From a virus, in the IMG/VR virus record IMGVR_UViG_3300042261_002385, positions 186,001-250,000 of that record: DNA of 64,000 bases; one strand, written 5' to 3'. The position numbers were made by a program, and so were the translations under genes. Of this stretch, positions 7,921 to 57,812 are shown one piece after another; the first letter of the stretch is position 1, and the number at the start of each line of letters is the position of its first letter. Under the pieces are notes generated by a model that was not told the origin of the DNA, searched no databases, and saw nothing but the letters and a program-made list of their open reading frames with translations.

Positions 7921-8877
7921 TTATTGCTCCTTAATTAAATCACCTTCCTGTTCTGAGTCTGTGTCGCCGTGTGTAAAATCACCAAATTTTTGTATTACTG
8001 GTGTCTCAATTTCATCCAGAATATCTCTTTTACTTTTTGGTGAAATAAATTTTCTCAATCTATCAAGAATCTCAACTAATCCGTGTTTAGCGATTCTAGT
8101 AGCTACTCCAACAGATAGCATAAAAAAGTTTGCTATAACATCATCAACTGACATCTTATGAAGTCCTATAACAGTCATAATAGCATTCATTATAGGAATT
8201 AATATAGACGTATAAGCAAACATATCAATAATTCCACCAACAGCGGCTCCTAAATGTTTTGCTATAGTAGAAAAGATGTTATTGATTCCACTAAGTGCTT
8301 TGATAACTTTTTTAACTATACCATCACCTATACCCTGCATTCTTAACTCTTCAAGCATTGACTTAGAATCTTTAGTTAATATTTCTTCCTCTTCTGGTTT
8401 TGCTTTTTTCTCTTCTAAATAAACAATTGTAATTGAAGCTATCGTCAGTAATACAACTGTTTGTTTTGAGATTTCAACACCTAATGACATATTTTGCATC
8501 ATTTGAGAAACAACTGGATAAAGTGCTCCGATTCCAGCTCCAAAAGTCAATACCAATTTCGAATCAAGTTTTAAATCAGATATTACCTTTTTTTCGATAG
8601 ATTTATAAGTTGAGAGGTCTTCTTCTATATCATCTTCTTCTTTTGGTATAAAATCATCTAAGACTTGAAATATTTCATCACTATCAAATCCCTCACTTCT
8701 AAGTTTATGATAAAACTCAGCAAATTGAGTAGTATTTGGCATAGTTTTTCCAAACTCTTGCTCAAATCTTTTTAAGATTTCATTTTTTTCACCATCATCG
8801 GATTCATTCAGAAAATTCAAGAAATCATCTACAATAACTTCTTGCCTATAATAATCATCAAATCTTTGAATTTTCAT
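7921..8877 (-). CDS. Membrane protein with leader-like N-terminus, possible capsid cargo
   Basis: An uncharacterised 318-residue protein. It begins MKIQRFDDYYRQ, a variant of the MKxxxFExF leader shared by many proteins in this window. A charged, helical N-terminal region follows (about 20-95). There are three or more hydrophobic segments: LVLTFGAGIGALYPVV, TVVLLTIASITIVYL and a pair around IDMFAYTSILIPIMNAIMTVIG. The C-terminus is acidic and hydrophilic. The helicase gene lies 50 bp downstream and another leader-peptide gene lies just upstream. The membrane call rests on hydrophobicity; packaging in the head is inferred from the leader only. Confidence 0.75.
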   Translation of the reverse strand: MKIQRFDDYYRQEVIVDDFLNFLNESDDGEKNEILKRFEQEFGKTMPNTTQFAEFYHKLRSEGFDSDEIFQVLDDFIPKEEDDIEEDLSTYKSIEKKVISDLKLDSKLVLTFGAGIGALYPVVSQMMQNMSLGVEISKQTVVLLTIASITIVYLEEKKAKPEEEEILTKDSKSMLEELRMQGIGDGIVKKVIKALSGINNIFSTIAKHLGAAVGGIIDMFAYTSILIPIMNAIMTVIGLHKMSVDDVIANFFMLSVGVATRIAKHGLVEILDRLRKFISPKSKRDILDEIETPVIQKFGDFTHGDTDSEQEGDLIKEQ

Positions 8878-8880
8878 AAT

Positions 8881-54915: not shown

Positions 54916-57812
54916 TTTGAAATCACCCCAGGGGTAAATTTACCCTCATCATATTTTTTATCAACAACTTCTCTATAATTGATAAACGCTGGTTTCACAG
55001 CTTTCAAAGCAGTAGCAACTGAATCTTTAGACTCAAGTTTCAATATATTTTGTCCTTTGAACTTATTATCTTCCATTTGTCTCATCACCAACCAATTTAC
55101 AGAAGTAATCTTAATTGTTTCAGTTCTTGTTTTTGGCTTATCCTCTTCTTTAACAATTCCTTTGATTTCTATTTCCTTAGCTCTGTTGTTTCCAACATTT
55201 TCCAAAGCCTTTTTAGTCATAACAGTGTGAATAACAGGATAAGGACCACTGCCTAATCTATCTCTTAATTCAGGATTAATATCTGAGTCGCCTTTACCAA
55301 TCTCAGTAGAGGGATGCTCGCTTTGTATTAGATTTCTGAAGTAAGCCATAGTTTTAGACATCATCACATAATATTTATCGTTGGCAATTTCATTAACAAA
55401 GACATACCAGTGGACAATTTTACCTTCAGTATCCTTACCATTTATTTGAAAAGTTGTAAATCTAAATTTACTTTCTTTTAAAACTTCATCAGCGGTCAAA
55501 GATGATGATTTAGCAAATTGTAAGTTTGATACGGTAATAGAGTCAGCATTTTGATTATTAATTTCAATATCGTTTTTACCAGTTTTCTTATCTTTCATAC
55601 CCAATTGAACATCTGAATTTTTCTCAAAAAATTCATTTGCAGTTTCACCAAAGTATTTTTCAATAGCTTTCTTTTGAGCCCCAGCTGAATCACCACCACT
55701 ACCTGATTTATAAAGATTATCACCATCTAAAAGGTCTGTCATAAGTTGTCTAAGTGCGACTCCTGCTCCTTCTCTAACATTTCCAGCACCATCATCTAAA
55801 ACAGTTTCTTTTGCAAATATTGGAGAAAATCTTGTATCAGCAAGAACATCCATCACTGCATCTTCCCAAATATTGAATGTCTTTTTATGTCTATATGGTC
55901 CGTGTTCAGTAGCACTAGGCTCACCAGAACCACCACCAAAAGCAGTATATTCATTATATGTTAATCTATCGACTGCACCACCTGATCTATTACCAGGGAT
56001 TACATCCGTGGTATGTAGCTTATAGGCTCTATTAAATAATCTTACGATTTCAATAATAGGGTTCATACCATTGATAACGATTGATTTTCCTTGTTTCTTA
56101 GCAGCATCTTCTACTTTTGTCTCAACTTCTTTAACTTCTTCTTCTGAAAGTAAAAAAGCCTCAAAGTCTAAGTTTTCATCAAAATATTCCTTTATTTCTT
56201 TAGAAATCTCAGCAGATTTATCTTCTTTGTTTTCTTTATCATCATCACCCTCTGCTTCTCTAATTAAAGTTAAGTAAGAACCATATTTTAATAACTTTTG
56301 TGAAACTGATTCTTCTTTCTTTTCAACTTTTTCTTCCTTAGCTAACTCATCAGGGTTAATCTTTTTGAGTTCTTTCATAGTATCAACGAACTCTTTAAGA
56401 GGTTTTCCTAATTCACCCAATGGTCCATAAAGATTCTGACCATCAAATTGGATAGCTCTCATCGTAAATCTTGCTATCTTTTCAGCGACAACAATTTTTT
56501 TGTTTTTATCTTTGATTACATCAAGACTTTCTTTGAAGAGAGCATCTGTAGGGGCGTTTAGTGTAGCCTTTTTATCACCAATCAAATATCTTAATACTTC
56601 TTTATACAAAGACTTAACTTGAATTTTAGTTTGTTCATCAACTGATTTTTCGGTGATTGCCTTTAGAAAATCAAAAGTGACTCCGATGCCTTTGTCCTTA
56701 GGATCTTCCAATACTTCACAGGCTTTTTTCAATTTGTTATAAGCCTGAGTGACATGATCTTCTTTCTTAGTTCCGACATTTCTATTTACACCACCACCAG
56801 TTCCTATACCTGTAGGACTTCCACCTTGTCCAATAGCAATTGGGCCTTCTTCAAAAAGATAACCTTCTTTAACTAAAGACAATTTAATTTTTAGGTCCTT
56901 TGTTAATTGAAGTTTATTTTTGTCCATTTTAGACTTTTCAGCCTTTATGGTATAAGGCTCTAATGTTTTTGAATTAGAAGACCAAATCTGATCAGTAGTT
57001 AATTTGTTTTTGTTAATTTTAACATCTTTTTGAATTACTTCAATAGTCTCACCACCTTTTGTGATATAAACATAATCCTCAGGTGCTGACGCAATTGCAT
57101 TTGGTGTAAATTTTTTGTAGTTTGCTAATACCAATGACAGTGATCTTAAGTTCTTTATCATAACTGGATATCCAGACTTTATGGAAATCTTTCCACCTGT
57201 TGATTCTTCAGAGTCGGAATCTTCTTCTTCATCATCGGTTGTTTTCTCTGCATCTTCTGAAAGAGGACCACCTTTACCATCAGTATCTTTAAACTTATTA
57301 AGAAATTCTAAAAACTCTTCCAGAGCTTTCAATATAACTTGCTTTGATTCTTCCGACTTCTCACTTACCTCGAGTGCCTCTAAATTATCAATAGTATTCT
57401 GTGTAATGTCTTTAATTTTTCCAACTTTTTCACCATCATCAACTGCTTTTTTAAGAACTCCTAAAATAGATGATATTTGAACTTTAGAAATATCTTCTTG
57501 GTCTTCTTTCGATAAGGTTCTAATTGCTGATTCACTAACTAATCTTTCGAATTGTGACTTCATTTGTTTAGCAACTAACGATATTCTACCCATATCAACT
57601 CCGACCCCAATCTTACGTATTACAAAATTTATAAATCTACCCAAAAGAGAGTCACCCCATCTTACGTTATTACCGAATGCTCCAGATCCAGGGGCATTTT
57701 CTTCTAAAATCAACTTTGTAGTCAAGTCTTCCAACAATTTATCTTGTTGAACTTTTTTTCTTTCACTTATATTCTTTAGGTAATTATCTCTTGAGTGTAA
57801 ATATTTCATCAA
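54912..57812 (-). CDS. Large multidomain protein sharing a domain with 15749-17464; possible head cargo
   Basis: A 966-residue protein starting MMKYLHSRDNYLKNISERKK, a weak leader variant. Residues about 150-500 share blocks with the membrane protein at 15749-17464: YPVMIKNLRSL, DHVTQAYNKLKKACEVL, DKGIGVTFDFLKAI, VVAEKIARFTMRAIQFDGQNLYGPLGE. A LKYGSYLTLIREAEGDDDKE segment near 525 may be a processing site. The C-terminal 350 residues form a different domain (DVIPGNRSGGAVDRLTYNEY, TFNIWEDAVMDVL, FQINGKDTEGKIVHWYVFVNE), with no family that I can name. It lacks the membrane hairpin of its relative. Confidence 0.78.
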   Translation of the reverse strand: MMKYLHSRDNYLKNISERKKVQQDKLLEDLTTKLILEENAPGSGAFGNNVRWGDSLLGRFINFVIRKIGVGVDMGRISLVAKQMKSQFERLVSESAIRTLSKEDQEDISKVQISSILGVLKKAVDDGEKVGKIKDITQNTIDNLEALEVSEKSEESKQVILKALEEFLEFLNKFKDTDGKGGPLSEDAEKTTDDEEEDSDSEESTGGKISIKSGYPVMIKNLRSLSLVLANYKKFTPNAIASAPEDYVYITKGGETIEVIQKDVKINKNKLTTDQIWSSNSKTLEPYTIKAEKSKMDKNKLQLTKDLKIKLSLVKEGYLFEEGPIAIGQGGSPTGIGTGGGVNRNVGTKKEDHVTQAYNKLKKACEVLEDPKDKGIGVTFDFLKAITEKSVDEQTKIQVKSLYKEVLRYLIGDKKATLNAPTDALFKESLDVIKDKNKKIVVAEKIARFTMRAIQFDGQNLYGPLGELGKPLKEFVDTMKELKKINPDELAKEEKVEKKEESVSQKLLKYGSYLTLIREAEGDDDKENKEDKSAEISKEIKEYFDENLDFEAFLLSEEEVKEVETKVEDAAKKQGKSIVINGMNPIIEIVRLFNRAYKLHTTDVIPGNRSGGAVDRLTYNEYTAFGGGSGEPSATEHGPYRHKKTFNIWEDAVMDVLADTRFSPIFAKETVLDDGAGNVREGAGVALRQLMTDLLDGDNLYKSGSGGDSAGAQKKAIEKYFGETANEFFEKNSDVQLGMKDKKTGKNDIEINNQNADSITVSNLQFAKSSSLTADEVLKESKFRFTTFQINGKDTEGKIVHWYVFVNEIANDKYYVMMSKTMAYFRNLIQSEHPSTEIGKGDSDINPELRDRLGSGPYPVIHTVMTKKALENVGNNRAKEIEIKGIVKEEDKPKTRTETIKITSVNWLVMRQMEDNKFKGQNILKLESKDSVATALKAVKPAFINYREVVDKKYDEGKFTPGVISK

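Follow-up and report, generated by a model that had tools for sequence, protein, structure and literature searches.

The window considered here – the whole stretch of DNA that was analysed, 64,000 bases corresponding to positions 186001–250000 of virus record IMGVR_UViG_3300042261_002385 (436,265 bases in full; G+C 31%) – belongs to a giant uncultivated bacterial virus, and many of its genes share a short N-terminal peptide, called the leader below. A preliminary description had listed sixteen window proteins with such a start and likened it to the capsid-targeting sequence (CTS) of phage T4. Fifteen of them do begin in a leader-like way: ten with strong profile scores of 10.2–25.5 (9982, 10577, 11263, 13790, 19491, 20614, 24732, 45818, 54376 and 54912), two in the form of the T4 CTS (8915 and 44459) and three weakly (7921, 15095 and 15749). 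The sixteenth, gene 44862..45815 (+), was rejected as a leader gene (start MKVKKFSKENKKKEAEE, score −2.8), and gene 26896–27429 had been missed. The features are given in window coordinates, with an arrow at the predicted cut; scores are profile scores, and 'box' stands for the upstream AATATATA box.

8839–8877 (−): weak leader-like start MKIQRFDDYYRQE, gene 7921–8877; score −8.2, box 13 nucleotides upstream
9875–9910 (−): leader MKLFRYFEFILE↓S of T4-CTS form, gene 8915–9910; pattern match
9951–9958 (+): late-promoter-like box AATATATA 5' of gene 9982, from the sequence
9982–10011 (+): leader MKHLRRFENF, gene 9982–10572; score 24.2
10577–10624 (+): leader MKYVKTYENFSSQINE↓E, gene 10577–11254; score 22.4
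11263–11292 (+): leader MKHLKKFESF, gene 11263–11841; score 25.4
13790–13819 (+): leader MVKIDKFNEF, gene 13790–14443, with a HAD phosphatase-like body from about residue 17; score 10.2
15701–15739 (−): weak leader MSKIEKFGEFTNE↓G, gene 15095–15739; score 3.7
17423–17464 (−): weak leader MRVQSFTNYSKLYE↓A, gene 15749–17464; found by eye, score −13, box 35 nucleotides upstream
20094–20144 (−): leader MKYVKTFESFNYNTTNE↓G, gene 19491–20144, a membrane protein with a hydrophobic segment; score 22.5
21187–21237 (−): leader MKYVKTFESFNYDPTNE↓G, gene 20614–21237, a membrane protein; score 22.5
24732–24776 (+): leader MKYLKTFESFSPINE↓E, gene 24732–25091; score 24.6
27400–27429 (−): leader MVDLKKYNYF, gene 26896–27429; score 10.7
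44459–44497 (+): leader MSKIHNYDDFLNE↓E of T4-CTS form, gene 44459–44824; box 12 nucleotides upstream
45818–45850 (+): leader MKHLKSYELFE↓S, gene 45818–46231; score 25.5
54880–54915 (−): leader MKYLRKYDFFKE, gene 54376–54915, 5' of the tail-sheath gene; score 16.3
57780–57809 (−): partial leader MKYLHSRDNY, gene 54912–57809; score 11.0, box upstream

The leader is not confined to the window. A profile seeded with the list of sixteen and refined over all open reading frames (ORFs) of the record – a full-genome search that the preliminary description had suggested – has the consensus MK(H/Y)(L/I)Kx(F/Y)(E/K)xF and, on simple gene calls, finds this first form of the leader on 67 of 540 ORFs, where windows placed after internal methionines give an expectation of about 0.6. 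Unsupervised, unseeded expectation–maximisation (EM) returned the same motif on 64 genes, where the log-likelihood rose by 367; none of six column-permuted nulls exceeded 124, and chance is excluded as the source of the motif. A second form, first spotted among genes with the upstream box, consists of the start followed by (Y/F)xxF(I/L)xE↓(S/A/N) – as in MKLRRYGQFINE↓S, MISKYLEFINE↓S and MKLRKYVQFLTE↓A – and has the shape of MKTYQEFIAE↓A of T4. Its 15 matches, at least one of which is due to chance (that of thymidylate synthase, 207903), bring the total to about 80 leader genes, so that the earlier figure of about sixteen referred to something real and was an underestimate. The two aromatic residues three positions apart, at T4 positions 4 and 7, are present in 56 of the 67 first-form leaders, a count that is partly circular given selection by the profile; in the second form the pair is there by definition.

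Behind this common start, the bodies differ, as had been claimed from the window: by blastp, the 67 first-form proteins fall into 62 families, with four small paralog groups. In gene 399598, residue 17 of the protein, behind the leader, is where the match to the glutamate racemase profile sets in, and in gene 13790 TIGR01488 covers residues 17–125, starting from profile position 1 (the LR756504 ortholog begins MGSKHIKTFENF). Further matches among leader proteins are a glutamine amidotransferase (48929) and a GH108 muramidase (363684); Pfam matches to DegT and DNA_pol_B, with loosely matched N-termini, were not counted as cargo. Of the cargo named in the preliminary description, the phosphatase (the HAD phosphatase-like 13790) and two membrane proteins (19491 and 20614) are borne out, and no oxygenase family matched any leader protein in the window, contrary to its oxygenase-like cargo. 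Codon choice at leader positions shows roughly the variety seen genome-wide, which argues for selection on the protein and leads us to reject a common DNA cassette or start-codon context: the leader is a module at the protein level.

Modularity is also apparent when relatives are compared. Gene 432903 starts MKWIKTREQWLNE↓ARIKDIILPKQ and has six relatives in LR756504, of which three bear a leader (MKRIFNFTQFIKE↓ALKDEIPKHQ and two others, with the pattern ...E↓A-L(K/R)D) and three lack it, starting MALRDEV, MSLKDLL and MPLRDEI; in the alignment of the family, the start methionine of the leaderless proteins coincides with the predicted cut. The family (G000 432903–434567; L121, L122 and L127) consists of proteins of about 540 residues, and half of its six LR756504 copies carry a leader. 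Similarly, gene 324861, which is HAD-like, carries a leader here, and its ortholog in LR756504 goes without one. Neither the glutamate racemase nor gene 432903 had relatives in a search of IMG/VR.

The phage has a head of T4 type. The record encodes, together, a T4-type portal (PF07230, E=5e-60), a Gp23 capsid protein (PF07068, E=7e-29) and a head maturation (prohead) protease (PHROG 207, E=1e-30). By portal and capsid protein, the nearest annotated phages are LR745206 and LR756502 (634–642 kb, capsid identity about 70%), followed by LR756501 and LR756504 (about 50%), LR756500 (34%), the Prevotella Lak phages, Sphingomonas phage PAU and Tenacibaculum phages.

Fused to the protease gene is a scaffold region of about ten 14-residue repeats, NIAYSEY(I/L)AENLDK. 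The fusion lies at G000 269288–271387 (L022:7288–9387), with the repeat NIAYSEYIAENLDK, and similar arrays are found in LR756504 and LR756501. A motif of the second-form type, (F/Y)xx(F/Y)(I/L/V)xE, occurs 67 times in the proteome, with 11 copies in the protease–scaffold protein – the most of any protein – and 22 at gene starts, against 3.0 expected. The same holds for LR756504 (11 copies in the protease–scaffold protein; 19 gene starts versus 3.9) and LR756501 (14 copies; 20 versus 2.3), and three gene starts of T4 carry it versus 0.9. According to T4 CTS genetics, residues 4 and 7 serve targeting and residues 8 and 10 processing (PMC9026906), and the fixed positions of the motif are these very residues. 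All this suggests that the leader is a mimic of one scaffold repeat, which the core would bind and the same protease would cleave. Separately, the first 200 kb of LR756501 encode a 1691-residue protein (MPALDERFVRNLQD...) with seven copies of the scaffold/leader motif, which may be a second core protein.

A candidate cleavage site may close many leaders: a site-like string is present at residues 4–22 in 44 of the 67 first-form leaders, against 91 of 469 in the comparison (P=5e-14), and in second-form genes the site is kept from one ortholog to the next. Orthologs of the portal-adjacent gene never vary at E13 (13 sequences, identity down to about 24%), which has I or L two residues before it and S or A after it, and the remaining leader residues vary; a structure model of this protein (13 sequences; predicted local distance difference test, pLDDT, 85) places the leader as a separate helix of residues 5–13 that ends at the conserved glutamate, and comparison of the model with known viral folds gave no match. 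The peptidase gene 264402 (PHROG 4191), which lies three genes 3' of the capsid gene, retains (L/I/F)FE↓(A/S) in every relative except the one that lacks the leader. In the window, FILE of gene 8915 is invariant in orthologs down to 47% identity, the site being kept as FILE↓(S/A) (the AlphaFold model of this protein is weak, pLDDT 60, with residues 1–16 unplaced), and relatives of gene 44459 carry MIRIDSYMEFINE↓E. The capsid protein propeptide has candidate end sites of the same kind – INE↓N here, MNE↓N in LR756501 and IHE↓N in LR756504 – that resemble the leader ends INE↓E, LNE↓S and LFE↓S; the INE of the gene 10577 leader is identical to that of the propeptide. In PAU, the mature capsid protein has 520 residues by N-terminal sequencing (PMC5646251), and the candidate cut LME64↓N65 would leave 521. 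These comparisons, and the leaderless paralogs that begin at the predicted cut, suggest removal of the leader by the prohead protease.

Of six relatives tested, four have a leader of their own on dozens of genes: MKYLKLFEDF in LR756504 (54 genes in 400 kb), MKYIKEYEEF(I/L)LE↓A in LR756500 (40 genes in 400 kb), MIKKFxxF(I/L)NE↓A in LR756501 (32 genes in 200 kb) and MKTLxxLYE↓(A/S) in PAU (35 genes, including ones annotated as scaffolding and internal capsid protein). For LR756501, the EM gain was modest (135 versus a null maximum of 111), and the count of the T4 form was 26 versus 1.5; its leader proteins include a GluRS-type tRNA synthetase, a methyltransferase and a radical-SAM protein. EM found no leader in Lak-B5 (200 kb read) or PTm1, and P-SSM2 has no comparable one, so a general habit of T4-like phages was rejected. 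T4 itself (114 versus a null maximum of 107) and RaK2 (138 versus 133), whose virion protein list has been published (PMC3622015), came out marginally above the nulls with incoherent motifs, and for RaK2 EM thus gives no leader of this kind. In the open PMC literature, we found no account of such leaders in jumbo phages.

The AATATATA box lies within 80 bases upstream of 26 of 31 operon heads with a leader gene, as against 75 of 239 other heads (P=2e-8), and also precedes the portal, protease and terminase genes. It is directional, occurs before about 130 genes in the record at two preferred distances from the start codon (about 12 and 27–30 bases) and is probably a phage-specific promoter. 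A strictly late promoter was rejected: the box is enriched at leader genes yet also stands before some DNA-metabolism genes. One such case in the window is the ribonucleotide reductase large subunit gene (2877–5429), which has the upstream box as head and leader genes do.

We consider it likely that the leaders act as T4-like capsid-targeting sequences, which the prohead protease would remove from cargo that would be packaged and ejected into the host. The leader, a predicted short amphipathic helix with the aromatic pair three residues apart that drives targeting in the T4 CTS, resembles one YSEY(I/L)AE repeat of the scaffold and therefore would co-assemble with the scaffold core, bringing its cargo into the prohead. 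There, the scaffold-fused protease would cut after the glutamate of (I/L/F)xE↓(S/A/N/E) and release the cargo, which would remain in the head beside the DNA and be ejected upon infection. About 15% of the genes have predicted capsid-targeting leaders, which suggests a cargo that includes, for example, the glutamate racemase, the phosphatase-like protein and membrane proteins. The capsid-targeting core of the preliminary interpretation is in this way strongly supported by comparison – T4-type head genes, the conserved (I/L)xE↓(S/A), leaderless paralogs, clade-specific leaders and the scaffold repeat, a link it had not seen – whereas no oxygenase family was found and gene 44862 does not carry the leader.

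Several points weigh against this interpretation. The packaging of the leader proteins is a prediction from sequence, and the annotations of the PAU leader genes may stem from homology rather than from mass spectrometry. The match of the protease to Pfam S77 stays under the cut-off (20.1 of 27 bits), that to PHROG 207 being clear. Roughly one in three of the 67 first-form leaders shows no clear (I/L/M/F/V)xE at residues 4–22, so that cleavage may be optional or obey another rule. Finally, ribonucleotide reductase, UvsX-type and primase-type genes likewise have the box upstream, and the box is therefore no proof of late timing.

A short amphipathic N-terminal helix could also direct proteins elsewhere during infection – to a membrane, a replication compartment or a host pole – with no relation to the head, whose link to the leader is comparative. 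We regard this as improbable, given that the form of the leader matches the scaffold repeat and the capsid propeptide sites, that several leader genes adjoin portal or capsid genes and that the cut-site glutamate is invariant. Quite improbable, too, is that the leader does package proteins, as the presence of several leader genes in the head gene cluster would allow, into a head where they stay as core or structural components: several cargoes resemble metabolic or signalling enzymes (racemase, glutamine amidotransferase, phosphatase), and the internal proteins of T4 are injected into the host (PMC9391042). Very little credence can be given to an element of translation start or expression – an A-rich start that boosts late expression and yields a common peptide by chance – which the AT-rich start regions and the common box might favour, and against which stand the codon usage, orthologs that swap residues yet hold the pattern, and a separate peptide in each clade. 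Hardly credible either is one expanded family with bodies diverged past recognition and a start kept by ancestry, which the four paralog groups recall and which was rejected on the 62 families and on leaders before proteins as different as the racemase, the HAD phosphatase-like domain and the three LR756501 enzymes.

Set against known systems, the proposed capsid-targeting leaders come closest to the CTS of the T4 internal proteins IPI, IPII and IPIII, likewise an N-terminal peptide of about ten residues that has two aromatic residues three positions apart and ends in (I/L)xE↓(A/S), here a candidate site of many leaders, before unrelated bodies, in a phage whose gp20, gp21 and gp23 all have homologs here. 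They differ in number (about four such genes in T4, about 80 here), in that each jumbo-phage clade has its own leader, and in that this phage has a protease-fused scaffold made up of tandem copies of the leader-like motif. Ejection proteins of the SPN3US/phiKZ type are head proteins cut by the prohead protease after glutamate (PMC5694885), as predicted here; yet most propeptides discussed for SPN3US exceed 100 residues and are cut at AxE, eight proteins were found to be processed, and no genome-wide common short leader is described (PMC5694885). In phage P1, the first 30 residues of DarB bring a reporter into the head (PMC9024508); the Dar N-termini are, according to the authors, without consensus (PMC9024508), unlike the dozens of proteins that share one here.

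For related jumbo phages, we put forward with moderate confidence a general protein-delivery system, in which a gene would gain packaging through a mimic of one scaffold repeat, 10–15% of the genes of a genome above 400 kb would be injected cargo, and the cargo list of uncultivated phages could be read off the sequence alone. Few genes of giant phages have a known function; if the leader is a mark of packaged cargo, dozens of proteins per genome can be predicted to be injected. The likeness to the scaffold repeat also suggests a concrete way in which a tag of ten residues could bring cargo to the prohead core, and the set of clade-specific leaders would provide ready loading tags for laboratory protein delivery by phage.

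Two minor observations concern individual leader proteins. The 19491 and 20614 proteins are paralogs of one body family, and the region from 19171 to 21237 of the window is a duplicated two-gene unit, in which a small membrane protein, MKTLLKFYLKNFK (19171 and 20275, +), faces the leader-bearing membrane protein (19491 and 20614, −). In LR756500, several leucine-rich-repeat proteins (L134, L143, L149 and L150), unusual as phage cargo, carry a leader.

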